A stretch of 44,233 nt of DNA. Origin: a bacterium (GTDB lineage Bacteria > Electryoneota > RPQS01). Location of the stretch: NCBI GenBank assembly GCA_018812265.1, contig JAHJDG010000002.1:1-44233 (forward strand), written 5' to 3'. Below the pieces are notes generated by a model that ran no database searches, was not told where the DNA came from, and saw only the letters and a program-made list of their open reading frames with translations. The position numbers were made by a program, and so were the translations under genes. Every line of letters begins with the position of its first letter. Within the stretch, counting starts at the first letter, position 1. Shown one piece after another: positions 2,833-40,656 of this stretch.

Positions 2833-4281
2833 TCATTTCATGAGAACGAGCTTTGCAGTTTGATGATGATTCTCGGTTCGCAATTGCGCGAAGTAAATAC
2901 CGGACGGTAACGCGCTGCCGTCGAAGGAAAGCGCGTGCGATCCGGCAGTAAAGTGTTCATCGGCGAGCGTCGTGATGAGTCGTCCGGTGACGTCGAATAC
3001 GCAGAGCCGAGCTCGCGTTGCTCTCGGAAAGTCGAAAAAAATCGTCGTGGACGGATTGAAGGGATTGGGATACACCGACAGAGCGAAGGTCTGCGGTTGG
3101 AAAGAACGGAAATCCCCAGCGGGCAGGGGGTCGGGAGTCGTCTTCAGAATGTAGTGCTGCAGGCCGGCTCCGGTGATGAAGGTAGTCCCGCCCAAGACGA
3201 AGCTGGCGTCGGCGAGCTGAACGACGCTGATGCAGTTGTCCGCGTCCGCTCCACCCCAATGTGTACTCCAAAGACTGTCGCCGTCCTCACTGATGCGAAG
3301 CAGCCAGATGTCGTAAAGACCATTGGAGAAGGAATAGGACCTTCCCGCCAGTACATAACCGCCGCCCATGACCGGGATCACCGTGTTGCAGAAGTCACTC
3401 AGTTCACCGCCGTAGACTCGACCCCACAGGCTGTCCCCGTTGGCGTCTGTCCGAATTGCAATAAAATTGGTATTGCCGGGTGTCAATAGTTGACCCCAGC
3501 CGGTGATCAGATACCCTCCATCCGAAGTCTGCACCACCGCTCGTCCATCTTCCTGATCGGGTCCGCCGAAAGTACGGCTCCACAGACTATCACCGTTGGC
3601 ATCTGTTTTGACCAGCCAGAAATCATGGTTGAGCGCTCCGAACGAACTTGTATAGCCGGCCAGCACAAAGCCACCGTCGGTAGTTTGCTTGACCGAATAA
3701 CAGTAGTCAATGTTTGAACCCCCGAAAGTACGGCTCCAGAGACTGTCACCCTCGCTGTTGATCTTGAGCAACCAAAAGTCGCCACCTCCTCCTGCACCGA
3801 ACGAGGAGGTCCAACCCGCGAGAACATATCCGCCATCGGTGGTCGGCTGTACGTCCCAGCAACGGTCGTCCAACGCTCCGCCGTATCGGTGATCCCAGAG
3901 GGGCGTACCGTCTGCATCAACTTTGACAATCCAGAAGTCCGGCGAACCCGCTACGCTTGTGTAGCCGGCCAGCAGGAAACCGCCGTCCCCCGCCGGGCAC
4001 ATGGCGAATCCCAAGTCCTCCGCCTCGCTGCCGTAGGCGTGACTCCAGAGGGAATCACCGTTCGCATCAGTCTTCAGCAACCAGAAGTCATTGTCTCCTG
4101 CCCCATAGGACTCCGTCCATCCGGCCATCAGGAAACCGCCATCAGCGGCAGGCAAGATGGACCAGCAGATTTCTCCCATGTCTCCACCGAAGCTTCGACT
4201 CCACAGGCTGTCGGGCGGTTGGGCGAAGGCCAGAACCGTCAACACGCAAACCAGCAGGAAAACCGGAAGGGTGCGTTTCAT
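2833..4281 (-). CDS. secreted Trp/Gly/Asp-repeat protein with T9SS type-A sorting tail
   Basis: Residues 1-20 are a Sec signal peptide ending FAQ. Residues 23 to about 385 hold seven repeats of about 52 residues, each with FGG, a DGGfxLAG core and DfWLvKtDanGDSLWS, as in beta-propeller-like surface proteins. The last 80 residues (from SVYPNPFNPSTT to LVLMK) form a T9SS type-A sorting domain, which guides cargo across the outer membrane and is usually cleaved. ATG is preceded by GGAG. It is the middle of three adjacent paralogues (134-1048, 4310-5767), and a fourth lies at 22617-24620. Its binding partner or substrate is unknown. The near-repeats in DNA invite recombination between the copies. 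Confidence 0.85.
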   Translation of the reverse strand: MKRTLPVFLLVCVLTVLAFAQPPDSLWSRSFGGDMGEICWSILPAADGGFLMAGWTESYGAGDNDFWLLKTDANGDSLWSHAYGSEAEDLGFAMCPAGDGGFLLAGYTSVAGSPDFWIVKVDADGTPLWDHRYGGALDDRCWDVQPTTDGGYVLAGWTSSFGAGGGGDFWLLKINSEGDSLWSRTFGGSNIDYCYSVKQTTDGGFVLAGYTSSFGALNHDFWLVKTDANGDSLWSRTFGGPDQEDGRAVVQTSDGGYLITGWGQLLTPGNTNFIAIRTDANGDSLWGRVYGGELSDFCNTVIPVMGGGYVLAGRSYSFSNGLYDIWLLRISEDGDSLWSTHWGGADADNCISVVQLADASFVLGGTTFITGAGLQHYILKTTPDPLPAGDFRSFQPQTFALSVYPNPFNPSTTIFFDFPRATRARLCVFDVTGRLITTLADEHFTAGSHALSFDGSALPSGIYFAQLRTENHHQTAKLVLMK

Positions 4282-4309
4282 TGGAAGATCTCCGTTGAAT
4301 GTGATGAAG

Positions 4310-5767
4310 TTATTTCAGAAGAATCAGTTTGACCGTCTTGACTTCATCCTGTGTCCGCAATTGTGCAAGGCAGACACCCGATGGATATCCGCCGCCGTCA
4401 AACTCAACTCGATGCGTTCCGGCGGAAAAGTGTTCATCGGCGAGCGTTGTGACGAGTCGTCCGGTGACGTCGAAGATGCGAAGCTGTGCTCGCGTCGTCT
4501 TCGGCAGATCGAAGGTGATGGTCGTTGCCGGATTGAACGGATTGGGATAGACGGAAAGGATAAAGGATGAGGGATGAAGGATGAACTGCTCATCGGCGTT
4601 CACTGATGGATCGGGTCCGGTCTTGACCAGCCAGAAGTCCGATGGGAATCCTTCCGCCGGAACCGCGCGACCACCGAGATAGTAGCCGCCGTCGGGAGCC
4701 ACCGCCAAAGTCCATAAAACCTGATCGAGGTCGCGGCCGTAGAGTCGGCTCCATAGGCTGTCACCGTCGGCATCAAGGCGCAGAAGCCAGAAGTCCTGAT
4801 CCCCCGCCGTGAAGGAACGGCCATCCCCACCGATCACCAGTCCACCATCCGGCAGAATCTGCGCGGCTCCCCCGAAATCGTTCGCATTTCCACCGTAGGT
4901 GCGGCTCCATAGTTCATTGCCGCTTCCATCGGTGCGAATCACCCACACGTCCCAATTGTCGGCACCGTCCATGTTCTTACCGCCGATGAGCAGAAATCCA
5001 CCATCCGCCGCCCGCTGAATCGAGCGGCATTCTTCATCAAACTCACCGCCGTAGACCCGGCTCCATAAACTGTCTCCATCGGGACTCGCCGCGACCAGCC
5101 ATACATCCTTGTCCCCTGCGCTAAAAGAGCGCGCATCTCCCGCCATGTAGAAATTGCCGTCAGTACCGATGAGGGACGTGAAACAACGTTCATTCGAAGC
5201 TCCGCCGAAGGTGCGGCTCCACAAGCTGTCGCCGTTTGCACTCATTCGAACCAGCCAGAAATCTTCCGTTCCTGCGCCATAGCTCTCCGTCCAGCCGGCA
5301 ACGTAGATTCCGCCGTCAGTTGTCTGACCGGCGGATCGGGTTTGCTCAGGATTGGAGCCGCCGAAGGTGCGCGTCCACAGGCTGTCGCCATTGGCATCCG
5401 TTCTAATCAGCCAGATGTCTTGAGCACCCACTCCGAAAGAGTTAGTGTTTCCGTATAGGAGAAATCCGGCATCGGAACAGGATTCCACACCCGAAGGATA
5501 GTCTCCGCTCGCACCACCAAAGAACCTACTCCAAAGGCTGTCGCCGCTGGCAGAAGTCTTCAGCAGCCAATAGTCCGCTTCCCCCGCGCCCCAACTGTCA
5601 CAGCGCCCGACGAGGATGAGTGAGCCGTCAGCGAGTACAAGAATTCCGCGCAACACCTCCGAGCTGTCCCCACCGTAATACCGGCTCCAAAGCGAATCGG
5701 GTTGGGCCAGCGCGCCGGTGGTCAACACTAAGCCGACCACTATCACTGCCGCCACATTTCGTTTCAC
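4310..5767 (-). CDS. secreted Trp/Gly/Asp-repeat protein with T9SS type-A sorting tail
   Basis: A paralogue of the downstream gene at 2833-4281, separated by 28 nt. GTG start with GGAGGAGG at good spacing; signal peptide to about residue 21 (ALAQ). Seven repeats carry DSLWSRxxGG, DGGxxLxG and D.WLxr.d.nGD. The tail starts at SVYPNPFNPATTI and ends KLILLK. Between repeats and tail, the linker FILHPSSFILS is encoded by a three-unit heptanucleotide array (4564-4584) also found as intergenic repeat DNA, so repeat DNA has been taken into the coding frame. It is probably surface-exposed after T9SS export; role unknown. Confidence 0.85.
   Translation of the reverse strand: MKRNVAAVIVVGLVLTTGALAQPDSLWSRYYGGDSSEVLRGILVLADGSLILVGRCDSWGAGEADYWLLKTSASGDSLWSRFFGGASGDYPSGVESCSDAGFLLYGNTNSFGVGAQDIWLIRTDANGDSLWTRTFGGSNPEQTRSAGQTTDGGIYVAGWTESYGAGTEDFWLVRMSANGDSLWSRTFGGASNERCFTSLIGTDGNFYMAGDARSFSAGDKDVWLVAASPDGDSLWSRVYGGEFDEECRSIQRAADGGFLLIGGKNMDGADNWDVWVIRTDGSGNELWSRTYGGNANDFGGAAQILPDGGLVIGGDGRSFTAGDQDFWLLRLDADGDSLWSRLYGRDLDQVLWTLAVAPDGGYYLGGRAVPAEGFPSDFWLVKTGPDPSVNADEQFILHPSSFILSVYPNPFNPATTITFDLPKTTRAQLRIFDVTGRLVTTLADEHFSAGTHRVEFDGGGYPSGVCLAQLRTQDEVKTVKLILLK
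4564..4584. repeat. heptanucleotide tandem array (three units) inside a coding region
   Basis: Plus-strand units AGGATGA, GGGATGA, AGGATGA; on the minus strand TCATCCY. The same unit occurs five times at 11164-11198. Here it encodes part of the linker before the T9SS tail of the 4310-5767 protein. Confidence 0.7.
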
Positions 5768-6015: not shown

Positions 6016-7317
6016 TCAGCCGCGAATCTGGATCGGGCCGGTTTCCACCGGATAGCTCGGGGTTAGATCCACCCACAGATTGGGATTGAGCACGGCCGGA
6101 TTGTCGGTCACGGCGTTCATGCCCATGCGCATGGAATAGGCGTCATAGCCGAGCGCGTTCAGGTAGGCGTCCATCTGCATGGAAGTCTGACCGGTAAAGC
6201 AGTACACGATCACCGGACGGTCGGTGGGGATGTACTTCAGGTTCTCGCTGACTCCCAGCGAGCCGGGATTGAAGCGGAACGATCCGGGAATGTGTCCGGC
6301 ATTGTAGTTGGCTTCCGGCCAGTAGCAGAGCAGGAACCAATCGTTGTTGGGATCTCCGTCATTCCGGTTGGCAAACACTTCCGCCGCCGACTTCATCTTC
6401 CAACTGGTAGGCGAAGCCGTAAGCTGCAGGGAGATTCGATTGATGAACATCTCCGATGCCGTCGCTCCGGTCACCGTGGGATGGGGGAAGCCATACTCGG
6501 CAGTCAACGGATTGTTCGTCGTTTCCAGCGCCTGTCCGCCCGGCGTGAGCGTGTACCAGCCGCCGCCGGCGCCGGTCTGGGCGGTGTCGCTCGTCCACGA
6601 GCAGAAACCCCACTTGAGGTTGTAGGCATTGAAGCCGGTGAGGTTCAGGTAGCTGGTGCTGAAACTGGCGGTCTGCCCGGTGTAGCAGTAGACGACGATC
6701 TTCTTGTCAGCGGGCAGTTCGTTTCGAAAATTGACCAGATCGGCCGCGTCCCAGTGATGCGCGCCGGGGATGTGGCCGCGCACGGTGTCATCGGCCAGCG
6801 AACGAACGCTGATGATGTAGGGCTGCGTGGGATCGCCGTCGTTCATCTCCGCCCACAACGCTTCGGCGGTGATGTTCTTGGTGGGATTCAGCAGGCTGTC
6901 GCCCCAGGCGGCCATGGTCTCAAATTCCGCCGCCGCGGCGGCAATGGTGAACGTACCGCTGACGCCGAAGACGCCGGCATCGCCGCTGCGCGTCACGCGA
7001 ATCTTGCCGGTGGCCGAAGCCGTCGCCGGAACCAGCCATTGATGCGAGTTGCCGGACACGGCGGTGGCAATCGCGCTCCAGGTTGCGCCGTCATTAAGCG
7101 ACAGACCGATGTCAAAGGAAGTGACGTTTTCAGCCGTCCACAAAACGGTCACCGTCGAATTGTACAGCAAACGGGCTCCCGACGCCGGGGCCGTTACGGT
7201 GATCGTGGCGGTATCGGTCGGTCCGGTAGGCGAATCGTCGTCGTCGGAGCAGCCGACGAACAGCGAAAGACCGGCCACAAGTATCAGCGGAATCAGCCAG
7301 AGGGAAAGACGCTTCAT
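6016..7317 (-). CDS. lipoprotein with two rhodanese-like domains
   Basis: ATG at 7317 has AAGGAG 6 nt upstream; an in-frame extension to 7395 lacks a ribosome site. The 433-residue protein has a lipoprotein signal with lipobox LFVGC (Cys23) and an acidic linker SDDDDS. A beta-sandwich domain follows (about 38-126), then two rhodanese-like domains with catalytic loops CYTGQT (Cys211) and CFTGQT (Cys373). Each domain also has the GHIPG motif. Rhodaneses move sulfane sulfur between donors and thiol acceptors; both loops keep the Cys, so both domains could be active, in contrast to most tandem rhodaneses where only one is. It lies 71 nt downstream of the multihaem cytochrome gene on the same strand and is probably co-transcribed. 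The pair suggests periplasmic sulfur (or selenium) redox chemistry; that is inference. Confidence 0.85.
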   Translation of the reverse strand: MKRLSLWLIPLILVAGLSLFVGCSDDDDSPTGPTDTATITVTAPASGARLLYNSTVTVLWTAENVTSFDIGLSLNDGATWSAIATAVSGNSHQWLVPATASATGKIRVTRSGDAGVFGVSGTFTIAAAAAEFETMAAWGDSLLNPTKNITAEALWAEMNDGDPTQPYIISVRSLADDTVRGHIPGAHHWDAADLVNFRNELPADKKIVVYCYTGQTASFSTSYLNLTGFNAYNLKWGFCSWTSDTAQTGAGGGWYTLTPGGQALETTNNPLTAEYGFPHPTVTGATASEMFINRISLQLTASPTSWKMKSAAEVFANRNDGDPNNDWFLLCYWPEANYNAGHIPGSFRFNPGSLGVSENLKYIPTDRPVIVYCFTGQTSMQMDAYLNALGYDAYSMRMGMNAVTDNPAVLNPNLWVDLTPSYPVETGPIQIRG

Positions 7318-7388: not shown

Positions 7389-8738
7389 TCACCACGGCGG
7401 CGGACCGTCGGGAACGATTAAATGCGTATTGGCTTGACGCTCGGCGGCCGAACTCAATTGGTCGAGATCCACCTGCCGCAGGAAGAAGCCCTGTGCGGTG
7501 GCCGGAGTCAAATGGCAGGCCGCGTTGCAGCTTCGCCCACCGCTGGTGTCGGTTTGCGCCGTCCGGCGCACGATGTTGTGCGGCGTGGTGTATTTGAACG
7601 TCGGCACGGAAGCATAGTCCGGACTACTCACACCCCAGGGAGTGAACGTGTTCTCGGAAACCGGGATATGGCGCAGCACGACGTACTCGGCGGGCCGCTG
7701 GTCGGCAATCGGATTGCGGCCGATCTTGAACCCGATCCACGACGGCTGCTGAATCCCCGAACCGGCGTGACAGTCCGCGCAGTTTTTATAGGCCTGCGAG
7801 TGACAAACCTGACACTGGAAGTCCTCGCCATGCGTGTTGTGGTACACGTTGGCGGAAAGCGGATGGTGACACTCTTCGCAGCTCACTTGATTGTCCACCT
7901 CGTAGCGGTGGTCGTATTCGTTGCCGTCGCCGTGCAGTCGCGTGCCGGTATGACAGGCTTTGCAGTGCATTGCGCGGGGAACATAGTGAACGTCGGGACG
8001 ATAACCCGCGTTGGCGCCGGTGTATTCGGCGCCGACCCGGCTGCCGTGACAGGCCATGCACTGATTGGTCATGTCGGGCACCCGCCGGACGTTATGCCCC
8101 TGAATAAATCCGCCGCCGACGGACTTGGGCCGGCTGATGTGGCACGAACCGCAGCTGGCGTGACACTTGTTGCATTCGGCGTCGAACTTCTCGCGGGCGT
8201 GCGGATCGGAGTTGATCGTTTGACCGGTGCGCGCTTCAAAGAGCGTATGATAGCCCTTCATCGTCGTATGGAGGCTGTGTTCAACCTTCGTCGCGATCTC
8301 CGCGTGGCACATGGCACACTGATTCACGGAAATTTCCGACGGATCGGGAACCAGTCCCTGATGAGCCTCGTCTTTGGTCAGTTCACCGATCCCTCCGCCA
8401 TGGCAGATCCGGCATTCCAGTCCGTGGGGACCGGTGCGGAAGGTTTCGTAGCCGCTTCCGGTGAGAATGACCTTTTGCCATCCCTCCAACGGAGGGACAC
8501 TTCCACCTCAGCCCTCGCCGGACGGATCTCCGGGAGGCGCGGTATCGGGCACAGCGACGGCCCGCAGCATGGCTTCATTGGTGTGGCAGCCGATGCAGTC
8601 GGCTCGATAACCTTCGATGGTGTCGGGTGGTGCGGCAGGGTTGTCCTCATCGCTGCAGCCCCCGAAAGTCAGCCCCAGAGCGAGCAGTCCCAGCAGCGTA
8701 ACCGCCCAAGTATTGGCTTTTTTGTTAGTCGGCACCAT
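7389..8738 (-). CDS. multihaem c-type cytochrome lipoprotein, candidate selenoprotein (in-frame TGA at 8510-8508)
   Basis: Read through one TGA codon, the frame encodes 449 residues. Residues 1-28 are a signal with lipobox-like FGGC. Haem motifs follow: CIGCH, then after the TGA (residue 77) CRICH, CAMCH, CNKCH, CGSCH, CMACH, CKACH, CEECH, CQVCH, CADCH and a CNAACH variant, eleven in all. TGA sits in GEG-x-GGSVPPLEGW with no frameshift. The part after it has no export signal and only a TTG start without a ribosome site, so it could not be matured as a periplasmic cytochrome on its own. A perfect hairpin follows the TGA (see 8481-8497). Hence I annotate one gene with Sec77; a nonsense mutation or sequencing error remains possible. 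The role is likely periplasmic electron transfer, with the rhodanese lipoprotein downstream. Confidence 0.7.
8481..8497 (-). promoter_or_regulatory. candidate bacterial SECIS hairpin
   Basis: On the minus strand TCCCTCC-GTT-GGAGGGA is a perfect 7-bp stem with a 3-nt loop, extendable by a G-U pair. It begins 10 nt and its loop 17 nt after the TGA, and the loop starts with G. This fits the published rule for bacterial selenocysteine elements as I remember it: loop 16-37 nt from UGA, 3-14 nt long, with G in its first two positions. Confidence 0.55.
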
Positions 8739-9103: not shown

Positions 9104-10147
9104 TCATTTCACGAGCTGCATCTTCACGGTCTGCGACTGGCCGGAAGCGGTGACGCGGGCGAAGTAGGTGCCGGTTGCCCAGTTTGCACCGTCCACCGGA
9201 AGGTTGTGCTGCCCCATCGGGAGCTCGAATTCCTCACTCGATACCAGCCGTCCGGTCTCATCATAGATCTTGAGTGTGACCGAACCGGTCTTGGTCAGTT
9301 CCACCGGCAGCGTGGTGGAAGGATTGAAGGGGTTCGGATAGTTCTGTCCGATCCGGAAGTTCTCGGCCAGCGGCCCGCGCGGAGTTTCGATGGCCAGCGG
9401 TGTAGTTGCGGCGGCCGAGAGATAGCCCTGAGTAAAATTCGGATCGGCTTCATCGACGGCGTTCCAAGCCCATATCCCAGTGTAGCCTGTCCGAAAGGAA
9501 TAGCCGTAGTCTTCGGTAATCTGCGGTGGCAGCGGAGGAATGGTCATCGTCGTGAAGACGTGCTCCTGAATTCGCAGACAGGGCCACGATCCCCACGGCG
9601 TAATCACCGTTCCCCAGCCGTCGCAGACGTAGATCGTGGAATCATGTATGATCATGGTGAAGCCCGGCATCGGCTCCCACGACCACTCCGAAACCGACGT
9701 CCAATTCGTTTGATAGGTGCAGGGGAAAACAAAGGTGGTCTCTTCCGGATTGAAATGAATGACCATCTGCTGCTCTTCGTAGTCCCCGGCATAGCCCATC
9801 ATGAAGGCTCCATTGCTGGTGATCCGAGTGTACGAATAGCCGGTCACCGGTTCATCATACATGGTGAAGGCATGGGTTGCCGTGGGGAAATCGCCGGCAT
9901 AGGGAGTGGAACTGGGAGCGACGATGTTGGTGGACTCATCGCCGGTGAAGTCGTAGCTGGAGAAGTCCCAAGTCTGGTTGGCGCCGCCCGAACCGACACT
10001 CAGCGTGACCTCCTCTGTCGAAGCATTGTAGATGGTGCTGCCGACGGGCGGCACGTTGGCGGAGGTGATCGTGATCTGACTGAATGACAGCGCGGTCAGG
10101 CTCAGAAGAGCAACGAGTCCCCAAAGAAGTGTTGTGGTTGATTTCAT
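9104..10147 (-). CDS. secreted protein of unknown function with T9SS type-A sorting tail
   Basis: The 347-residue product has a Sec signal peptide (residues 1-24, ending SFSQ), a region of about 230 residues rich in beta strands, Tyr, Trp and Thr, and a T9SS tail from NYPNPFNPSTTLPV to KMQLVK. The middle domain (pattern NQTWDFSSYDF, then a two-Cys region with PCTY) resembles Bacteroidota-type secreted proteins of undefined function; I do not recognise a catalytic motif. The ribosome site is AGGGAAT. It has its own terminator at 9024-9047 and is probably transcribed alone or with the metallo-beta-lactamase gene 86 nt upstream. Confidence 0.8.
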   Translation of the reverse strand: MKSTTTLLWGLVALLSLTALSFSQITITSANVPPVGSTIYNASTEEVTLSVGSGGANQTWDFSSYDFTGDESTNIVAPSSTPYAGDFPTATHAFTMYDEPVTGYSYTRITSNGAFMMGYAGDYEEQQMVIHFNPEETTFVFPCTYQTNWTSVSEWSWEPMPGFTMIIHDSTIYVCDGWGTVITPWGSWPCLRIQEHVFTTMTIPPLPPQITEDYGYSFRTGYTGIWAWNAVDEADPNFTQGYLSAAATTPLAIETPRGPLAENFRIGQNYPNPFNPSTTLPVELTKTGSVTLKIYDETGRLVSSEEFELPMGQHNLPVDGANWATGTYFARVTASGQSQTVKMQLVK

Positions 10148-10233: not shown

Positions 10234-11025
10234 TCAATGGAAGAGCCGGAGCGTGTTTTCGATGAGATCAGGTGTGAAAATCAGGCTGTGGCCCGAGACC
10301 ACGAACCGGGCCGGGAAGCGCTTGAGCTTACGCACCGACTCGGCCCAGTGAACGGTGTCGGCGTCGGCAAGGTTGCCGAGTGAGTTCCCGCCTCGGATCA
10401 TGCAACCGCCGAATAGAGCTTTCTGTGCGGGAAACCAGACCACGATGTTGTCGCGGGTGTGGGCCGGACCCGGATAGTAAAAAATCACCGAATCCCCCCC
10501 GAACGTAAGAACCAGACCGGAATCGGCGGGAAAGACGTGGTCGGGCGGCAGATGGGCGAGAATCGAAGTGTCCACTTCCGCGAGCTCTACCGAATCGCTC
10601 TCCACGTTTGCCATCACCGCTCGAATCTCGGCTTGCCGCTCGGCCAGCAATTGCACCGTCATCTCGCTTCCGTAGGCGGGGACGTTCATCTCCCGCAGCG
10701 CCGCGTTTCCGCCCAGACAATCCACGTGAAAGTGCGTGTTCACGGCAATGGCTCGCGCATAGTGCAGATTCTCGCGGCACCATTCGAGCAGATCGCGGGT
10801 GGCTTCGGGTGTGGTCGGCGTGTCCACCAAGACCAGCATCGAATCGGGCATCATCACGATCAGCGAATTGTACGGCCACTCCCGCTCGTGCACGACGACG
10901 TACACATCTTCATCGAGCTTGGCAACGGTCAGCTCATCGCTGGCCGTCCATTTCGGGTCGGGCAGCGCGGCGAGCGCGAGGGTTGCGAGAAATAGGAAAG
11001 AAATCGGTAGGGTTCGCGAAATCAC
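10234..11025 (-). CDS. subclass B1 metallo-beta-lactamase-like enzyme
   Basis: The 263-residue protein has a signal peptide (1-20) and every B1 zinc ligand: HFHVD (His98, His100, Asp102), His189 in PAHTRDN, Cys208 in FGGCMI and His246 in SGHS. The block DNIVVWFP..LFGGC...LGNLADAD is typical of B1 enzymes such as BcII, CcrA, IMP and VIM, which open beta-lactam rings in the periplasm. Cys103 next to Asp102 also occurs in CcrA, from memory. The length fits the family (about 230-265). The GTG start at 11025 lacks a clear ribosome site. No resistance genes or transfer signs surround it, so this looks like a resident chromosomal enzyme. The substrate is not proven by sequence. Confidence 0.85.
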   Translation of the reverse strand: MISRTLPISFLFLATLALAALPDPKWTASDELTVAKLDEDVYVVVHEREWPYNSLIVMMPDSMLVLVDTPTTPEATRDLLEWCRENLHYARAIAVNTHFHVDCLGGNAALREMNVPAYGSEMTVQLLAERQAEIRAVMANVESDSVELAEVDTSILAHLPPDHVFPADSGLVLTFGGDSVIFYYPGPAHTRDNIVVWFPAQKALFGGCMIRGGNSLGNLADADTVHWAESVRKLKRFPARFVVSGHSLIFTPDLIENTLRLFH

Positions 11026-19997: not shown

Positions 19998-20114
19998 CGA
20001 GAAAATCCCACAGTCTCAGACGGAGATCAACGTTTGACACGACAAGTGGATGCAAGACGAAGTGACCATGCAGCAGACAAACCCGAACGCGGACGAATCC
20101 GCGAAGGAGGTATC

Positions 20115-22340
20115 ATGCGCCTGATGAGGTTCCTTTTGCTCGGAGGCCTGATTCTTAGCCTCGCTGCTCTTTCCCCCGCCCTTGCCGACTGGATTGAAAA
20201 GGCGGGCTACATTGATTATGCACAGCACCAGGTCGGCGTGCCACCGATGGAGTGGCCGGTTGATGGTATGCCCGACTTCGATCAGAAGCAGGACGCGTGG
20301 CGGAACGCCAACAACCAATGGAACTGGTGCGGGCCGGTAGCCGCCGCCAACTGTCTGTGGTGGTTCGACTCGAAGTTCGAAACGATCAAATGTAAGTCTC
20401 TACCGGCCGGAACACTGATTCGGCCACCGACGATCAGTGACCACTACAGTCTGGTGTACAACTGCGTGGTCGGAGCCAACCTTGACGATCACGATCCGCC
20501 GAACGTAGTGCCGTGGATCACGCTTTTCGGCAACTCGCTGCCCGGTGGAATTCCTCCGGCCGGCGTGACCGCCCAGCAGATCAAGACCATGATCGAGAAC
20601 TGGCTGGCCTCGGCGGCGGTGAATCTGGCTGGACACTACACCGTTAGGATCGTGAATGCACCGACCTGGGACTACATCTACCGGCAGGTGCAGATCAGCC
20701 AGGACGTGATTCTGCTGTTGGGATTCTGGCAGCGAGATCCCTCGAGCGGGCAATGGGGACGTTTCGGCGGACATTGGGTAACGGTGGCTGGCGTGGATAC
20801 ACAGGACGTAGACGAGATTTCCTACAGCGATCCCTGCGTGGACAATGCCGAGCTGGGGATGCCCGGCGTGGTGTGGAACGGATGGATTATTCCGCACGTG
20901 CCGATTCCCGGTCACGGCCCCGGTATCCACAATGATGCGGGCAACGTATCGCACGACCACTATCCGGTGCAAGGCTCGGGTTCGCCCGGCGGCGGAATCT
21001 CGCCCGGTAACTACGGACAGGAGTTCGACTATTCGGACTGGACGAATTTCCAGGGATTGAACAGACCCGCCCGGCTCGATGACTTTCAGTCGCAGTACAA
21101 TCCCAACTGGCCGGTGCATACCGAAATCGAGGACATCGTGGTGGTCTGCCCGAACTTCGATTACGGAGATCTGCAGATTGACTACCCGACCATTGACATC
21201 GAGTCCTGCGGGCCGGCCCATCCCCTCACGGATAAGGCTTGGCTGGGCAACAATATCAGTTCCGAGATTCAACCGAGAATTGATACCGCCAACCAAGTTT
21301 ACGATCAGGACATCTTTGATGACGGAGTGCAATTCGTGGGTCTGCCGTGGATAATCGGAACGAATGTGCAGGTAATCGTCCAGGTTACAACCGGACCGAG
21401 CTACGCCGGAGAACCGTTGTACTTGAGCGCATGGAAAGACGGCAACGTTGACGGGGACTTCGATGACGGTCCGAATAGTCCCGACTTCGATCCCGATGAA
21501 GATAACTGGCTCCAATGCACGGAGTGGGTGATTCAAGATGCTCTCGTGGCAGGCGCGGGAGTGTACACGTTCACTTTCTGTGACCCCGGCTTCGCAAACA
21601 TCGAAATGTGGGATCTGCGAATCCGCGTCCGTCTGAGCAGTCAGCCGGTTGGCCGCTACGGCTACGGCGGTTACTGGGGCGGCGGAGTCTCCAACGGCCG
21701 CGGCACCTATGATATTGATTGGGTGCTGGGCGAAGTTGAGGATTACATCATTGATGATGGACAACAACTCGCGGTTGAGCTTCAGCGTTTTGATGCGGTG
21801 CCGGGGAACAGATGGGTGAACCTCCTCTGGACCACCGCCTCGGAGACCGACAATGCGTACTTCACGCTGGCTCGCCGCACCGGAACGAACGCGTGGAACG
21901 AGATCACGCGCGTGAACAGCCGCGGTAACAGCGCGAGCGCTCAGCATTACAGCTACATCGACGCGGACCTGCTCAACGACGTAACTTACGAGTATCGTCT
22001 GGCGGCAGTGGACATCTTCGGCCACACCGAGGTCCTCGCTCTGGAAAGCGCCACGCCGCGCGCCGAAGCCGTTCCGCTCGAGTACAGCCTCGCGCAGAAT
22101 CATCCCAATCCCTTCAACGCCAAGACCGAGATCGAGTATTCGCTGCGGGAGAGCGGCCGCGTGACCTTGACCATCTACAACGCCACCGGACAGCTCGTGA
22201 AGACGCTGGTGGACGGCTACCAGTCTGCCGACCGCTACCGCGTTTCCTTCAACGCCGATGAACTCGCTTCGGGCATCTACCTCTACAAGCTCGAAGTCAA
22301 CGACTTCACCTCGGTCAAGAAGATGGTGCTCTTGAAGTAA
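20115..22340 (+). CDS. secreted C39-like cysteine peptidase-fold protein with GEVED, FN3-like and T9SS domains
   Basis: The ATG at 20115 follows GAAGGAGG. The 741-residue protein repeats the plan of the upstream gene: signal peptide (1-25), Cys72 in WCGPVAAANC, His220 in GGHWVTV, Asp239 in SYSDP, then the GGYWGGGVSNGRGTYDIDW...GEVEDY block. It continues with an FN3-like domain (about 560-655, TASETDNAYF) and a T9SS type-A tail (HPNPFNAKTEIEYSL to KKMVLLK). The tail DNA is nearly identical to that of the 22617-24620 gene. It probably lies in one transcript with the paralogue 117 nt upstream. It is a surface or released enzyme of unknown target. Confidence 0.78.
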   Translation: MRLMRFLLLGGLILSLAALSPALADWIEKAGYIDYAQHQVGVPPMEWPVDGMPDFDQKQDAWRNANNQWNWCGPVAAANCLWWFDSKFETIKCKSLPAGTLIRPPTISDHYSLVYNCVVGANLDDHDPPNVVPWITLFGNSLPGGIPPAGVTAQQIKTMIENWLASAAVNLAGHYTVRIVNAPTWDYIYRQVQISQDVILLLGFWQRDPSSGQWGRFGGHWVTVAGVDTQDVDEISYSDPCVDNAELGMPGVVWNGWIIPHVPIPGHGPGIHNDAGNVSHDHYPVQGSGSPGGGISPGNYGQEFDYSDWTNFQGLNRPARLDDFQSQYNPNWPVHTEIEDIVVVCPNFDYGDLQIDYPTIDIESCGPAHPLTDKAWLGNNISSEIQPRIDTANQVYDQDIFDDGVQFVGLPWIIGTNVQVIVQVTTGPSYAGEPLYLSAWKDGNVDGDFDDGPNSPDFDPDEDNWLQCTEWVIQDALVAGAGVYTFTFCDPGFANIEMWDLRIRVRLSSQPVGRYGYGGYWGGGVSNGRGTYDIDWVLGEVEDYIIDDGQQLAVELQRFDAVPGNRWVNLLWTTASETDNAYFTLARRTGTNAWNEITRVNSRGNSASAQHYSYIDADLLNDVTYEYRLAAVDIFGHTEVLALESATPRAEAVPLEYSLAQNHPNPFNAKTEIEYSLRESGRVTLTIYNATGQLVKTLVDGYQSADRYRVSFNADELASGIYLYKLEVNDFTSVKKMVLLK

Positions 22341-22521
22341 CCACGTATCATACGATGTCTCCCACTCCTCCTCGGGAATGGGGGACACCTGTTCGTGTCC
22401 GTTCGATCTGCCCTGCTACAACGGGAGGAGGGTGGTTTGGGACGCAACGCAATTCTAAATCAATACACGAGATCTGCGGACTTGGAACCCGTGATTCTCG
22501 TCAAGTTCTTTTCGCTCGCGG

Positions 22522-22550
22522 AGGGGTGGACATCAGTCCACCCCTTTTCT
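22522..22550 (+). terminator. intrinsic terminator between the C39-like pair and the repeat-protein gene
   Basis: AGGGGTGGAC and GTCCACCCCT form a perfect 10-bp stem with an ATCA loop, followed by TTTCT. It lies in the 276-nt gap 22341-22616 and ends the upstream transcript. Confidence 0.8.
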
Positions 22551-22616
22551 CTGTGCAAACGTTTGCCCAATGTTGGGCAGTTTTCGGTAAACCAACCCAA
22601 GGAAAGGGGAACGATC

Positions 22617-24620
22617 ATGAGATCGCAAATCGCATCTCTTGTCCTGCTGCTTATCGCAGTACCGTTAATTGCGGGAGTACCTGATACCGCGTGGACGCGA
22701 ACGTATCCCGGACCGTATGGAACAAGCTTCTCGGATATGCTGCAAACCGAGGATGGCGGCTACATTCTTTGCGGTAACAAAAACTACGGTTCAGGATGGG
22801 GCGAAAACAACAGTTGGCTCGTGCGCACCAATGCCATTGGTGAAACACTCTGGACACGTACATGGGCAGTGGGTACTCTGGAGGAATTCAGAGCCATTGA
22901 TAGAACGTCAGATGGCAATTTTATCCTTGCCGCCTACCACGATGTTGGAGTCTGGGCAACGGAGGAGACCGGGCTTATGAAGGTTTCGGCCAATGGCGAC
23001 AGCTTGTGGTGTCGCAAATTTGATCTATTTCCCGGGCGCGATAACATAAACGATGTGGCATCGGCGTCCGATGGAGGATACTTTCTTATCGGTACTTGCG
23101 GCGGCAGTGTAGATGTCTGCGATCTTACTGTAGCCAAATTCGATGCCGCAGGAGCAGTAATCTGGACGCGACAGATTCATCGGGACATTCGGACCTGGGC
23201 TCAGTCCGTGGTTGCCATGCCCGATGGCGGCTGCGTGGTTGCCGGTGACGTAGGCCAAAGTTGGCCGTCTCCCGCACAGGCATTGCTGATGCGTATGAGT
23301 GCCAACGGTGATATTCAATGGGAGCGCACTTATGGCAGCGCCGATCGCGAGAGCTTTGGCGCTGTTCAGATTACCAGCGACGGGGGATTCATTATGGCTG
23401 GTGCCACACTGACGATGGGCACGCTAACCAGCGATATCTATTTAGTGAGAACCGATGCCTTGGGCAATCCCCTCTGGATTCGCTCCTATGGCACACCCCT
23501 TGGAGATCAAGCCAATACAGTATATCAAACACAGGATGGTGGCTTCATTACAGGTGGGCAAGGGGGCGCCATCTATGGCGGAGCGATCGGCTACTGGATT
23601 ATCCGCATGAACGCAAACGGTGACCTGCTTTGGCAAACCCCCACTGACTACCCGTACGGATTCGCCGTGAGGGGCGTCCTGCAGACGGACGATCTTGGTT
23701 TCATGGCCTGCACTTATTATGGTGCATCTTTGGTGAAATACGAACCGGAACAGGCGTCGGCAGGCTATGTAACCCTTGTGTCTGCAGGTCCTCCAGATTG
23801 GGAGTATCGCTTGCATTGGCAGGAAGGCGACGTGGATCTACTCGTTTTCTCCAACTTATACCCTGGTACTCTTGGATCTGTTATAGGGGAGGCTGCTCTA
23901 ACCGGCTGGGCAGCAACTTCAGGTAACAACTTTGTCATGTTCACTTCTCCGAATGCACTTTCTTCAGGTTCACTTTCCGGTTTCGTGCTATCATGTCCGA
24001 CTCGCAGTGATCTCATCACGTGGGTAGCGGGGGACAGTAGCGGGTACGTGGACGGCCCCCTGCCCGTTGAACTGCTCTCGTTCACCGCACTCCCCGGCAA
24101 CGGAAGCGTCACTCTCGAATGGAAAACCGCCAGCGAGACCGACAACGACTATTTCGAGATCCTGCGAAACGACGAAATCGCCGCTCGCATCTCCAGCCGG
24201 GGCAACACGGCCAGCGGGCACGAGTACTCCTGGACCGACGCAGGTCTGGAAAACGGTTCCATCTACGCCTACACCCTGATCGCGGTGGATCTGAACGGTG
24301 CGCGTGAAGAGCTGAGTACCATCGAGGCAACTCCCACGGAAAGCGACGCTTTGATCACCGAGTACGCATTGCAGCAGAACTTCCCCAACCCGTTCAACGC
24401 CAACACCGAGATCGAGTATTCGCTGCGGGAGAGCGGCCGCGTGACTTTGACCATCTACAACGCCACCGGACAGCTCGTGAAGACGCTGGTGGACGGCTAC
24501 CAATCCGCCGATCGCTATCACGTATCCTTCAACGCCGGTGACCTGGCTTCGGGCATCTACCTCTACAAGCTCGAAGTCAACGACTTCACCGCCATCAAGA
24601 AAATGGTGCTGATGAAGTAA
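22617..24620 (+). CDS. secreted Trp/Gly/Asp-repeat protein with FN3-like domain and T9SS tail
   Basis: The ATG at 22617 has AAAGGGGA before it; the longer in-frame start is upstream of the terminator and is rejected. The 667 residues have a signal peptide (1-20), seven divergent repeats of the same family as at 134-5767 (DTAWTRTY, DGGYILCG, LVRTNAIGETLWTRTW and so on), a non-repeat region with LPVELLSF and TASETDNDYF (FN3-like), and a T9SS tail (FPNPFNANTEIEYSL to KKMVLMK). The repeat part looks lower in GC than the tail, and the tail matches the upstream gene nearly base for base, so the gene appears mosaic. Surface location likely; function unknown. Confidence 0.82.
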   Translation: MRSQIASLVLLLIAVPLIAGVPDTAWTRTYPGPYGTSFSDMLQTEDGGYILCGNKNYGSGWGENNSWLVRTNAIGETLWTRTWAVGTLEEFRAIDRTSDGNFILAAYHDVGVWATEETGLMKVSANGDSLWCRKFDLFPGRDNINDVASASDGGYFLIGTCGGSVDVCDLTVAKFDAAGAVIWTRQIHRDIRTWAQSVVAMPDGGCVVAGDVGQSWPSPAQALLMRMSANGDIQWERTYGSADRESFGAVQITSDGGFIMAGATLTMGTLTSDIYLVRTDALGNPLWIRSYGTPLGDQANTVYQTQDGGFITGGQGGAIYGGAIGYWIIRMNANGDLLWQTPTDYPYGFAVRGVLQTDDLGFMACTYYGASLVKYEPEQASAGYVTLVSAGPPDWEYRLHWQEGDVDLLVFSNLYPGTLGSVIGEAALTGWAATSGNNFVMFTSPNALSSGSLSGFVLSCPTRSDLITWVAGDSSGYVDGPLPVELLSFTALPGNGSVTLEWKTASETDNDYFEILRNDEIAARISSRGNTASGHEYSWTDAGLENGSIYAYTLIAVDLNGAREELSTIEATPTESDALITEYALQQNFPNPFNANTEIEYSLRESGRVTLTIYNATGQLVKTLVDGYQSADRYHVSFNAGDLASGIYLYKLEVNDFTAIKKMVLMK

Positions 24621-30844: not shown

Positions 30845-32383
30845 CTACCGCAAATAGAGGAGCTTGCCGGTCTCAACCTTGCCCGCGCCTTCCAGCCGCA
30901 GCAGATAGAGGCCGGTGGCGCCGGTGGGTGACCACGTATAGTCGTGCGCGCCGGGCGTCAAGCTGGTGAGCTTTTCGCTAAGCACCTCGCGGCCCAATAC
31001 ATCGAACACCGACAGACTGAGTTCGCGCACCGCGCCGACTTCAAAGCGAATCTGCACACTGCTGTTGAACGGATTGGGATAGGATTCGAGCAGACGGAAA
31101 TCGCGCACCGTCACCGTCGTCGGCTCATCACCGACGGCATCGGGAATCAAGATGTCCGAAGGATAACGCGGCGTGATCTGATAGCCGTCGGTGTAGGGCG
31201 AAGTGTTGTCGAACTGCGTGACAATCCCCATCACGTCGAAGGTGGCGGGCGGAGCCGGGCTGCCGTCCACGTCGGTATCGCTGTCAATCCGCAGCGTGAT
31301 CGTTCCATTGCCGTCGGTGATGGTCAAGTTCGCATATTGTCCCTCCCCCGGCCAGGTGCCGCTGATGATCGAAACACCGTTCATGCGGACGAGCATCCCC
31401 TCGAACGACTCGAAGTAGGATGCTCCGGTGACCAGCGTAGGTTCCACCGTGTCCACGCTGCCGATGACTTCCACGGAAAAGACGCAATTGCCGCTGCCCG
31501 AGGAAAGTAATTCCGTCAAGCCATTGTATTGTCCGACCCAGCCCGACACCTCCACGCAGTCGCCTTCCATGATTCCCACCGGAACGTTGCCGCGGAACAC
31601 GTTGCATCCGGCGTCGTCATCCTGAATGTAAAAGCTGCTTTCGGTGAGACTGTCCAGCGTGTAGTTGTCCACGTTGACGATTCCCTGCACGACGACGAAT
31701 ACACCGTCCAGAACGGGAACTCCGTTCCCGTCGTTCTCGCGGACGTCGCTCAGCGTGACGTACTGCGGATCGCACGGCGAGCCGCTGTTGGGCGTGCCGG
31801 GGGAAGGTGGATCGAGCAACATCCAATCCGCTCCGTTGTTGTCGGTATCCTGATGATCGGGGACGCGGCCGATGGATTTGGCTGGTCCGGAGGCCGGAGG
31901 ATCATAGTCGGGCGCATTCGATCCGCCTTCGCCGGTGCAATTACCGGGATTTTCGCATTCACCATAGCAGAGATGATCTACGGTAGTGCCGCTGGCGTTG
32001 CGCAGATCTACGCCATCGCAGTCGGGTGTGCTTTGGTAGCCGCCGTTCTGCCAATCCACGCCGGCAGTGGTTCCGACATTGAGAACCAGATCAACGTTGG
32101 GAACACTGGCCGTATTGCCAATGACGAAGTACCCGTCGGCGGGAATCGTGCCACTCAGAGTGACCGTGCGATACTCGGTGCCGTTGTTGCCGTTGGTCCC
32201 GACCAGCGTCCAGCCGGAAAGACTCGTCCCCGGCGGACCCCAGAGTTCCGTGAACAAGACGTCTGCGTTCTCAGCACCGGGATTGTCATAATAAACCTCA
32301 TTCAAAATGACTTGTGCGGGTGCGTTCGCCGCCAGCGCGAGACACAGCAGGGTTGCGAAAGCGATTAACAGTTTGCGAGACAT
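30845..32383 (-). CDS. secreted lamin-tail-domain protein with T9SS type-A sorting tail
   Basis: ATG after GGAGG. The 512 residues have a signal peptide (1-23, ending APA) followed by a lamin-tail domain (about 24-190: VILNEVYYDN, FTELWGPPGTSLSGWTL, VIGN). Then comes an OB-fold-like region (about 205-400) with SSFYIQDDDAG and VEVSGWVGQYNGLTEL, as in secreted nuclease-associated proteins. The T9SS tail is SYPNPFNSSVQIRFEV to KLLYLR. Such lamin-tail plus OB combinations often accompany extracellular nucleases, but no nuclease domain is present here. It is likely surface-bound and of unknown target. A methyltransferase gene lies 17 nt upstream. Confidence 0.8.
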   Translation of the reverse strand: MSRKLLIAFATLLCLALAANAPAQVILNEVYYDNPGAENADVLFTELWGPPGTSLSGWTLVGTNGNNGTEYRTVTLSGTIPADGYFVIGNTASVPNVDLVLNVGTTAGVDWQNGGYQSTPDCDGVDLRNASGTTVDHLCYGECENPGNCTGEGGSNAPDYDPPASGPAKSIGRVPDHQDTDNNGADWMLLDPPSPGTPNSGSPCDPQYVTLSDVRENDGNGVPVLDGVFVVVQGIVNVDNYTLDSLTESSFYIQDDDAGCNVFRGNVPVGIMEGDCVEVSGWVGQYNGLTELLSSGSGNCVFSVEVIGSVDTVEPTLVTGASYFESFEGMLVRMNGVSIISGTWPGEGQYANLTITDGNGTITLRIDSDTDVDGSPAPPATFDVMGIVTQFDNTSPYTDGYQITPRYPSDILIPDAVGDEPTTVTVRDFRLLESYPNPFNSSVQIRFEVGAVRELSLSVFDVLGREVLSEKLTSLTPGAHDYTWSPTGATGLYLLRLEGAGKVETGKLLYLR

Positions 32384-33274: not shown

Positions 33275-33931
33275 TCAGAAAGGGCACGAACCAACAAGCT
33301 CTTTCATGTACTTTGAGACTGCTTTCTCTGTGAAAATAGCCAACCTCGATACGTGTGCATGGAAATCAACGCAATGACTTTTATTCACTGATTCCGCAGT
33401 GATAGCTCTATGCGCAAGAGAGCCGCGCATCGTCACGAACTTCTCCAAGTTGTCTCGAGCTTTCTTTACACTAAGACCTCGAGTCTGCCAGCTTTTGCTG
33501 ACATCTCGCAAGCCTAAGACAGTCATGAAAAGACTATCCAGATTCCTCCACTTCGGCGCATGAAAAGTGTCAAGGATGCGTTCGACAGATGCCCGTGTCT
33601 TCGTTCGCCATGCTGAGCCAGCTAGTTCCCAATAGTCCATCGGGTTTCTCGCCTTCTTCTCGCACCATGAAGAAGCGACCGCTGTTTTCAGACTATTCGG
33701 TAGAGTCTTGGGCTCGGCTGTGCTACTCAGAAGGTGGTCAAAGGCTTCTTTGCAGAGGTCCTCACAGTACGCTTCCCACGAGGCACAAATAAGCACAATA
33801 GCAGACTTATTAAGAACTTCGAGATTATATCTTCTCCCTGCACCCGTTCCCCCTACATCTTCATGAATCTCAAGAAGACGATCTATGTCTTTGAGGTTCT
33901 GCTCAAAGTTCCTAAATGCATCTGATTTCAT
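33275..33931 (-). CDS. HEPN-domain protein (RiboL-PSP/MAE-like), possible RNase effector
   Basis: The ATG at 33931 follows AGAAGG; an in-frame GTG at 33952 is less likely. The 218-residue all-helical protein has an N-terminal SWEAYCEDLC helix (51-60) as in RiboL-PSP and MAE-type HEPN domains. The catalytic-type R-x4-H motif is RGSLAHR (Arg169, His174), the signature of HEPN ribonucleases in toxin-antitoxin and abortive-infection systems. It is 92 nt downstream of the zinc-ribbon membrane gene on the same strand. Both genes are lower in GC than their neighbours, which suggests transfer. RNA cleavage is inferred from the motif only. Confidence 0.7.
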   Translation of the reverse strand: MKSDAFRNFEQNLKDIDRLLEIHEDVGGTGAGRRYNLEVLNKSAIVLICASWEAYCEDLCKEAFDHLLSSTAEPKTLPNSLKTAVASSWCEKKARNPMDYWELAGSAWRTKTRASVERILDTFHAPKWRNLDSLFMTVLGLRDVSKSWQTRGLSVKKARDNLEKFVTMRGSLAHRAITAESVNKSHCVDFHAHVSRLAIFTEKAVSKYMKELVGSCPF

Positions 33932-34023
33932 GGCACCTTCTCTAAAGCCCACTGTGAATTTTGGATCGCAAAAAAAGGAATCTTTTCATCATTCCAACAG
34001 CAAATGGAGGATAACCACTACCC

Positions 34024-38514: not shown

Positions 38515-40656
38515 CTATCGCAGGAGAACGATCTTCTGCGTCCGCGCGACCGACGATGTTTCGAGACGGGCGAAGTAGATTCCGCTGGCCAGACCCGCGC
38601 CATCCAAAGCAACCGAATGCGGTCCGGCGGCAAAGACCTGATCGGTCAGTCGCTCAACAATCCGTCCCATCACGTCGTAGATTACGATAGTCACCCGCGA
38701 AGATAACGGCAGGTCGAACGTGATGGTTGCCCGCGCATTGAACGGATTGGGATAAACCGCGAGCGTAAAATCACGGGGCGATAGCGATGATTCAATTTCC
38801 GGCGGCACCGCCGCCGTAGCCGGCCAGTGCAGAATCGTTCCGCCGCTACCCACCGTCCAAAGATGATTTCCGACGGCGGTTATGCCCCACAAATCGTTGT
38901 CCGTTCCACCAGACTCGTTCGTCCACGTTGTTCCGCCGTCGGTCGTGCGCATGATCCCGCCCGCGAAACCCACCGCCACCGCGCTCTGCGCATCACCGGC
39001 AGCTACGTCAAGCAGAATATCTCCCGCGGCGGCGGTCTGGGGAGTCCAGATCGCGCCGCCGTCGGTCGTCACGACCACAAAGCGGCGTCCCAGTTGAATA
39101 TTATATCCCACCGCCCAGCCGCTGTTCGCATCCGCGAAGTTCACGCCGAGCAGAATCAGATTCCCGAAGGAACGTTGCACGGTCCATTCCGCGCCGCCAT
39201 TCGTCGTGTGAAAGATGGCGGCGATCACCTGCGTTGTTTCGTAGAATCCGACTGCCCAGGCGCGTTGCGCGTCCAGACACGTCACGTCCCACAAATCCAT
39301 GCCGGGAACCGAACAGTCCTGATTCTGCCACGACTGACCGCCGTTGGTCGTATGCAGCAGTGTTCCCCCCGCTCCCACCACCCAGCCGTTCACGGGATCG
39401 GCAAACGACACCCCGTGAATATCCTCCCACACGTCAGCGTCCTGCGTCGTCCAGCCGGCTCCGCCGTCGGTGGTATGGAGAATCGTGCCGAGCGCGCCCA
39501 CCGCCCAGCCGTTCTGCGCGTCGGCGAAATCCACATCACGTAAAGTGTGCATCGTGGGACGGGCCTGTAAACTCCAGTTCGATCCGCCGTCGGTCGTGTG
39601 CAGAATCGTTCCCCAGGCTCCCGCCGCCCATCCAAGATCGTTCCCTGCAAATGAAATCGCCATCAAGCCGCTCGGCACTCCCGTATTCCAGCGATTCCAC
39701 GATCCGCCGTCATCGGTGGAATGGCAGAGCGTTCCGCCGTCGCCGCTGACCCAGACGGTTCCGCCGGGGGTGACCGTAATCTGCCAGAGCACGGCTCGCT
39801 CAGCGATGTCGCGCGATTCCCAGGAATCACCGCCGTCGGTGGTTCGCAATACCGTCCCGCCGCTGCCCGCCGCCCAGGCGACGGATGAATTCCGGCAGAC
39901 GACACTGGTCAGTCCGGTGTTCACGTTCGGGCTTTGCTGTGTCCATTCTGCGCCGCCGTTGGTGGTGTGAAAGATCTCGCCGCCGGTACTCACCACCCAG
40001 CCGTGTTGATTTCCGCTGAAGGCGATATCGGAAAACTCACCGCCGCAGGCTACGGGTTGTTCGGCCCACGACAATCCGCCGTCATAAGAGAAGAAGACTA
40101 CGCCGTGGTAGTGGCGGGCGTCATAGCCGACCACCCATCCATGCGAGGCATCCGCGAAATGAATCGCCCACAGATCGTAGTCATCTTCACTGTGATACCA
40201 GTACCAGTTCAGTCCGCCGTTTTCCGTGTACCAGAGATTGCCCGCCCCCACGGCATAGCCGGTGTTCTCGTTGAGAAAGAACACGTCCCGAATCCGGTAC
40301 GGTGCGGCGAACGACTGCCGCGACCAGTTCATGCCGCCGTTGGTCGTGCGGCAGATCGCTCCCCGGTTGGTTTCCGAGTCGAATCCCGCCGCCCAGCCGT
40401 GGTTCGGATCCACGAACGTCACCGCCTCAAAGCGGGCACGCGTACCGCTCGTTTGCGCGTTCCACGTGGTTCCGCCGTCGGTCGTGTGCAGAATCGTTCC
40501 GTAGCCGCCCACCGCCCAGCCGGTCAGATCGTCCACGAACACAACGTCACTGATCGTGTGACCCCACGGTCGCGGATTCTGCCATTCCCAGTCCTGCGTA
40601 AATCCCGTCTGTACGAGGAGGGCCGTCGTTACCAGCGCCAAGAGAAAGTTCCGCAT
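38515..40656 (-). CDS. secreted Ycf48/BNR-repeat beta-propeller protein with T9SS tail
   Basis: ATG after AGGAGG. The 713-residue protein has a signal peptide (1-20, GFTQ). About 12-13 repeats of about 46 residues follow, each with DgxxGWaVGxxGtIlhTtDGGxxWxxQ, the pattern of Ycf48/HCF136-type BNR propellers and of sialidase-like repeats. The T9SS tail is VYPNPFNARATITFDL to QKIVLLR. Ycf48 itself assists photosystem II assembly, but bacterial relatives in non-phototrophs are surface proteins of unknown role. No catalytic residues of sialidases are seen. The gene follows the T9SS-tail fossil at 40690-40764. Confidence 0.83.
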   Translation of the reverse strand: MRNFLLALVTTALLVQTGFTQDWEWQNPRPWGHTISDVVFVDDLTGWAVGGYGTILHTTDGGTTWNAQTSGTRARFEAVTFVDPNHGWAAGFDSETNRGAICRTTNGGMNWSRQSFAAPYRIRDVFFLNENTGYAVGAGNLWYTENGGLNWYWYHSEDDYDLWAIHFADASHGWVVGYDARHYHGVVFFSYDGGLSWAEQPVACGGEFSDIAFSGNQHGWVVSTGGEIFHTTNGGAEWTQQSPNVNTGLTSVVCRNSSVAWAAGSGGTVLRTTDGGDSWESRDIAERAVLWQITVTPGGTVWVSGDGGTLCHSTDDGGSWNRWNTGVPSGLMAISFAGNDLGWAAGAWGTILHTTDGGSNWSLQARPTMHTLRDVDFADAQNGWAVGALGTILHTTDGGAGWTTQDADVWEDIHGVSFADPVNGWVVGAGGTLLHTTNGGQSWQNQDCSVPGMDLWDVTCLDAQRAWAVGFYETTQVIAAIFHTTNGGAEWTVQRSFGNLILLGVNFADANSGWAVGYNIQLGRRFVVVTTDGGAIWTPQTAAAGDILLDVAAGDAQSAVAVGFAGGIMRTTDGGTTWTNESGGTDNDLWGITAVGNHLWTVGSGGTILHWPATAAVPPEIESSLSPRDFTLAVYPNPFNARATITFDLPLSSRVTIVIYDVMGRIVERLTDQVFAAGPHSVALDGAGLASGIYFARLETSSVARTQKIVLLR

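Follow-up and report, generated by a model that had tools for sequence, protein, structure and literature searches.

The cytochrome gene and its product

On the minus strand of the window (the whole stretch of 44,233 nucleotides that was analysed) lies a gene for a multihaem cytochrome that is interrupted by an in-frame TGA, and it is followed by a gene for a rhodanese-type lipoprotein. The features of the locus, with the TGA taken as a selenocysteine (Sec) codon, are as follows.

7389..8738, minus strand: predicted gene of the Sec-containing 11-haem lipoprotein cytochrome, 449 amino acids with UGA as Sec
8655..8738, minus strand: signal sequence up to Cys28, a cysteine of the lipid-attachment type, found in at least 90% of 11 aligned rows
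8583..8597, minus strand: haem motif 1, CIGCH, residues 48-52, the sole haem motif 5' of the Sec
8508..8510, minus strand: in-frame TGA, codon 77, in the motif GEG-U-GG, read as Sec; the counts for this column in 81 sequences are given below
8481..8497, minus strand: SECIS-like hairpin with a 7-bp stem and a GTT loop, 10 nt after the TGA
7512..7529, minus strand: haem motif 11, CX3CH, residues 404-409, which is CxxCH in several relatives
6016..7317, minus strand: two-domain rhodanese lipoprotein, 71 nt downstream of the cytochrome, with the catalytic-loop Cys conserved in both domains

Translated on the minus strand, 8738-7389 yields 449 residues; a TGA is the one stop inside the frame and a second TGA closes it, in agreement with the first-pass annotation, where this single in-frame TGA was described as the only interruption of the gene. 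The N-terminus is lipoprotein-like, with a hydrophobic leader up to Cys28. After the TGA we count nine CxxCH motifs and one CX3CH motif, that is, ten haem motifs, and the leader and the first haem lie before it, which is the arrangement described in that annotation. If the UGA were not recoded, only a 76-residue fragment with one haem would be made, and the second half, which carries no export signal, would therefore have no haem attached, as had been argued before. Very probably the gene product is exported and transfers electrons, with eleven haems and one Sec, and we infer that it is anchored by lipid. It is noted that among the Pfam families only Cytochrome_C7 matches the protein, over a short stretch, and that no NCBIfam model matches it.

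A fold predicted from 11 sequences was poor (pLDDT 41), while that predicted from 68 sequences was good (pLDDT 85, pTM 0.80); a search of the PDB with the AlphaFold model gave no match at E 0.001. The residue Sec77 is part of an invariant loop, rich in Gly, that lies between haem 1 and haem 2. Besides the eleven proximal histidines, the conserved histidines number nine (105, 126, 157, 215, 251, 269, 300, 303 and 387). With nine candidate distal histidines for eleven haems, about two haems are left with no obvious second His, and it is at such haems that a substrate site might be expected.

The TGA column across relatives

In a first search of 61 genomes, 10 homologues from other genomes were obtained over most of the length. 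All ten have exactly one in-frame TGA, at the same codon, inside an invariant G-U-G-G. A scan of GTDB genomes then gave 388 relatives, mostly from metagenome bins and several with doubtful labels, of which the best 80 were kept, so that with the window there were 81 sequences. The first-pass annotation had proposed looking for Cys or TGA at the GEG-x-GG position of homologues, and among the window and the best 80 of the 388 relatives this column reads TGA in 62, TGC in 11, TGT in 5, CGG in 2 and TGG in 1, i.e., TGA in 62/81 and a Cys codon in 16/81; neither TAA nor TAG occurs there in any of the 81 sequences. Nearly all sequences of this set are free of any further internal stop. The exchange of Sec and Cys at one column is a classical sign of selenocysteine. 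A tree of 80 rows places 14 of the Cys forms in one group of Ignavibacteriota, Bacteroidota and Chlorobiota and nests the other two among the Sec rows, and from these two nested rows at least one switch from Sec to Cys is likely to have occurred. The two CGG sequences are near-identical in the tree and possibly reflect a single event. With Arg in two near-identical sequences and Trp in one, either the residue is not absolutely required or these copies are altered. The Arg members read GEI-R-GG; SelB is present in their genomes and the rhodanese neighbour is absent.

The relatives that have TGA or Cys at the column are drawn from many phyla and many independent assemblies, with members of the family found in Krumholzibacteriota, KSB1, Calditrichota, Electryoneota, Chloroflexota, Planctomycetota, Myxococcota and others; Stygiobacter electus is a cultured relative with the Cys form. 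In bins labelled Thorarchaeota, Gemmatimonas, Latescibacterota and Fibrobacter, the family genes almost match those of other phyla or nest among them, and these may be mis-binned contigs. So many independently obtained assemblies share this TGA that a sequencing error is ruled out, which disposes of a doubt that had been raised with the original observation.

The SECIS-like hairpin

The hairpin begins after a 10-nt spacer (8507-8498) and consists of the stem strand TCCCTCC (8497-8491), the loop GTT (8490-8488) and the stem strand GGAGGGA (8487-8481), with the G of the loop 17 nt past the TGA. The earlier description of a perfect 7-bp hairpin at this distance, with its GTT loop and its G at 17 nt, is exact in the sequence. 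A hairpin at the fixed site is present in 58 of the 62 TGA genes as compared with 1 of the 16 Cys genes, and a G at position 20 is present in all 62 TGA genes as compared with 6/16 of the Cys genes.

The TGA genes fall into two hairpin classes, one with a GTT loop (34 sequences) and the other with a GGA loop (28 sequences), the latter loop sitting three bases later than the former. In the GTT-loop class the seven pairs are kept in 90.8% of the cells, and pairing falls to 41-60% when the partner is slid by 1-3 columns. Changes on both sides occur in four of the pairs of this class, a level reached by none of 500 shuffles, while in the GGA-loop class one pair is C-G in 18 sequences and A-U in 10, again with 0/500 shuffles, it being noted that these shuffle figures overstate independence because the sequences share ancestry. 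One of the coupled exchanges joins the silent third base of a Val codon with a residue change (GTC/GGA, GTG/GCA, GTA/GTA).

Selenocysteine machinery and the reading of the UGA

The genome of the window, which is 97.5% complete, contains tRNA-Sec (anticodon TCA), SelB over its cut-off, SelA and SelD, so the search for selA, selB, selC and selD that had been suggested with the original observation found all four. The SelD gene of this genome (14934-15650 on its contig) itself has one in-frame TGA and probably encodes a selenoprotein too. A survey of SelB covered 38 genomes of the family (19 with TGA, 16 with Cys and 3 with Arg or Trp at the column). SelB was found in 19/19 of the TGA genomes, in 18 of them above the cut-off and in one apparently split over two contigs, as against 1/16 of the Cys genomes (Fisher p 5e-9, a figure inflated by the relatedness of the genomes); it is present in all three of the genomes with Arg or Trp.

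Based on these comparisons of sequences, we consider that UGA codon 77 is decoded as Sec in a Sec-containing 11-haem cytochrome, with a probability of about 0.95. In this reading, SelB and tRNA-Sec would read the codon as Sec under the direction of the hairpin 10 nt downstream. Two other readings of the codon are extremely improbable. That translation really ends at the TGA, or that the TGA arose through faulty sequencing or marks a pseudogene, leaving two separate or dead genes, could be argued from the facts that TGA is an ordinary stop in this stretch, terminating 12 of the 23 genes of the window, and that errors are possible in a metagenome-assembled sequence, but it is inconsistent with the recurrence of the TGA with almost no further internal stops and Cys in most of the remaining sequences, with the covariation of the hairpin and with a second half that has no means of export and hence of haem attachment. 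That UGA is read as some other amino acid through a reassigned code or a suppressor tRNA might be suggested by the Trp codon in one relative and the CGG in two; against this, TGA ends about half of the genes of the window, of the 19 sequences with a sense codon in place of TGA, 16 have Cys, and the Sec machinery is present in the genome, with SelB tracking the TGA.

The rhodanese partner and the gene neighbourhood

The rhodanese reading frame as listed starts at 7395; an ATG at 7317 is preceded by AAGGAG, which resembles a Shine-Dalgarno sequence. A lipoprotein with two rhodanese domains adjoins the cytochrome on the same strand at 63/81 loci, nearly always downstream and with a median gap of 61 nt, and it is present at 15/16 of the Cys-form loci; the next most constant cluster of neighbours occurs at only 25 of the 81 loci. 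Some of the loci that lack the rhodanese are close to contig ends and others are not. Subsets of the loci have as neighbours cytochromes with 4, 7, 12-14 or 17-19 haems, porin-like and MtrB/PioB-type barrels, an Fe-S protein with a cytochrome b561, and regulators of the sigma-54 and TetR kinds.

In the window, the genes around the cytochrome-rhodanese pair encode secreted repeat proteins and others with no clear link to it, and no conduit genes stand beside the pair. Proteins with type IX secretion sorting tails (Por_Secre_tail) flank it at 2833-5767, 9104-10147, 20034-24620, 30845-32383 and 38515-40656, two of them with delta-60 repeats. The gene at 10234-11025 (minus strand) is near the subclass B1 metallo-beta-lactamases, with 187.6 bits against a cut-off of 200, and is thus a divergent relative below the naming threshold. 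The gene at 33275-33952 (minus strand) encodes a HEPN RiboL-PSP domain protein, possibly an RNase of the defence or toxin-antitoxin kind.

Comparison with known selenocysteine cytochromes

The octahaem tetrathionate reductase family (TIGR04315, PDB 1sp3) is like the present family in that the stretch joining haem 1 to haem 2 holds a Sec or Cys, and differs in having eight haems and the motif NNF-U, as compared with eleven haems and GEG-U-GG. Many TIGR04315 genes have one in-frame TGA, and in those read it lies at NNF-U, aligned to Cys64 of 1sp3, which we take to be the active-site position. These TGA genes stand beside Cys forms and are common in one phylum, a pattern suggesting that Sec and Cys are widely interchanged within an enzyme family already known. 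The TIGR04315 model itself gives no match to the cytochrome (curated cut-off 375 bits). By hhalign a match between the two families is scored at 97.7% and E 1e-12 over 183 columns, with shared DVH and CQxCH stretches; a distant haem core in common may lie behind it, but haem motifs inflate such scores and the AlphaFold model has no match in the PDB. The equivalence of Sec77 and Cys64 was considered and is not claimed: in the best profile alignment there is a shift of two haems, which places haem 3 onward of the present family on haem 1 onward of the octahaem family, with Sec77 outside the aligned region, so that the Sec sites of the two families do not align.

It was supposed in the first-pass annotation that Sec in the linker of such a cytochrome would be a redox centre not yet described. 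This holds only in part. Sec in multihaem cytochromes had been described already: ExtKL of Geobacter was put forward as a Sec cytochrome in 2007 (PMC1914089), its Sec was also described in PMC5877670, and the inventory of 2026, with 119 selenoprotein families, includes ExtKL, the Sec forms of the TIGR04315 octahaems and GSU2204 (PMC13188914). By contrast, the present family is absent from the 119 families of that inventory (PMC13188914), and in the open-access literature we found no published description of it or of its Sec site. GSU2204, the family of CXXCH (seleno)proteins (NF041027) listed in a context of extracellular electron transfer (PMC13188914), is an outer-membrane barrel, unlike the cytochrome of the window, and gives no match to it; a barrel near some loci of the family matches NF041027 weakly.

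The resemblance to ExtKL (NF040886) is that of an exported c-type cytochrome with several haems and a single predicted Sec, with TGA in most of the members found and with a rhodanese-type lipoprotein in its cluster, where ExtH is the rhodanese and ExtI a porin (PMC5877670, PMC6148476). This likeness of the gene pair is the ground on which the cytochrome could be taken as an ExtKL orthologue and the rhodanese as ExtH, a reading that we regard as very improbable. ExtKL has five haems as compared with eleven, and its Sec, near residue 300, belongs to a C-terminal domain free of haems (AGHxIPDGUPTPN) and does not lie between haems 1 and 2; the cytochrome does not have the ExtKL layout of five haems followed by a GUPTPN Sec domain. 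It has no match to NF040886 at E 0.01 (curated cut-off 250 bits), the best NF040886 score in the genome of the window being 32 bits, at a different gene, and the rhodanese scores 15 bits against ExtH, for which the cut-off is 200. The profiles of the two families share 23 columns around one haem, with no full-length similarity, and early searches for ExtKL in other genomes gave haem-motif noise only. Set against real ExtKL-family genes in layout, score and profile, the cytochrome is rejected as a member. As judged from sequence, it would represent a separate family among the Sec multihaem cytochromes, with its Sec in GEG-U-GG between haems 1 and 2 of 11.

A cytochrome gene beside rhodanese genes, as at the window locus, is also described for Dethiobacter alkaliphilus, where an octahaem-rhodanese cluster (DealDRAFT_1917) is raised in thiosulfate-grown cells (PMC10376724). 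Its cytochrome is of the octahaem SirA/Otr type, with no Sec reported in the accessible part of that paper, and is likened to the present one by description (PMC10376724).

Discussion

We tentatively propose that the cytochrome is a cell-envelope enzyme in which the Sec handles sulfane sulfur or oxyanions of sulfur or selenium and the haems wire it to respiration. In the proposed mechanism, the Sec would be the reactive, substrate-handling residue, probably located beside a haem that lacks histidine as second ligand. The cytochrome would have as its partner the tandem rhodanese lipoprotein of the next gene downstream, acting as donor or acceptor of sulfane sulfur or selenium, and the selenol would be converted to a persulfide or selenosulfide. 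Electrons would pass along the haems to or from the membrane or outer-membrane cytochromes, and in sum a sulfur or selenium compound would be respired outside the cytoplasm. That the substrate is a sulfur or selenium compound is a guess made from the rhodanese neighbour; chemistry of this kind is suggested by the rhodanese together with the Sec/Cys octahaem tetrathionate reductases and the thiosulfate-induced octahaem-rhodanese cluster of Dethiobacter (PMC10376724). The fuller proposition, in which an undescribed and widespread selenoprotein family has a Sec at a haem as the catalytic centre of an envelope respiratory enzyme for sulfur or selenium and is fed by a dedicated tandem rhodanese, is more doubtful.

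Two other roles are each rather unlikely. The first is that the Sec binds one haem axially and tunes a wire for electron transfer, with no catalysis. Cys-ligated haems are known in the sulfur cytochromes SoxA, TsdA and DsrJ, and such a ligand would be consistent with the shortfall of conserved distal histidines relative to the haems. It is expected less from the long retention of Sec over Cys, which suggests chemistry and not ligation, and from the occurrence of Arg in place of Sec in two sequences. The second is that the two proteins belong to a conduit for extracellular electron transfer to metals, with the rhodanese structural or protective. The porin-like and MtrB/PioB barrels and large cytochromes near some loci point this way, as does the altered metal reduction upon extHIJKL deletions in Geobacter (PMC6148476); by contrast, most loci share the cytochrome-rhodanese pair only, and the window lacks conduit genes adjoining it.

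Returning to the reading of the protein as a Sec cytochrome, it is noted that gene calling with TGA as a stop would split every Sec member in two, as in the list of reading frames of the window, so that the family would likely be missed or taken for a signal-less fragment. The family would be another one of Sec multihaem cytochromes beside ExtKL and the Sec octahaems, with a Sec site of its own, which suggests that selenium has been adopted more than once in haem-chain proteins. The neighbouring rhodanese, a sulfur-transfer enzyme, hints at the respiration of sulfur or selenium compounds, and with this recurring partner and the cultured, Cys-bearing Stygiobacter electus the function can be tested.
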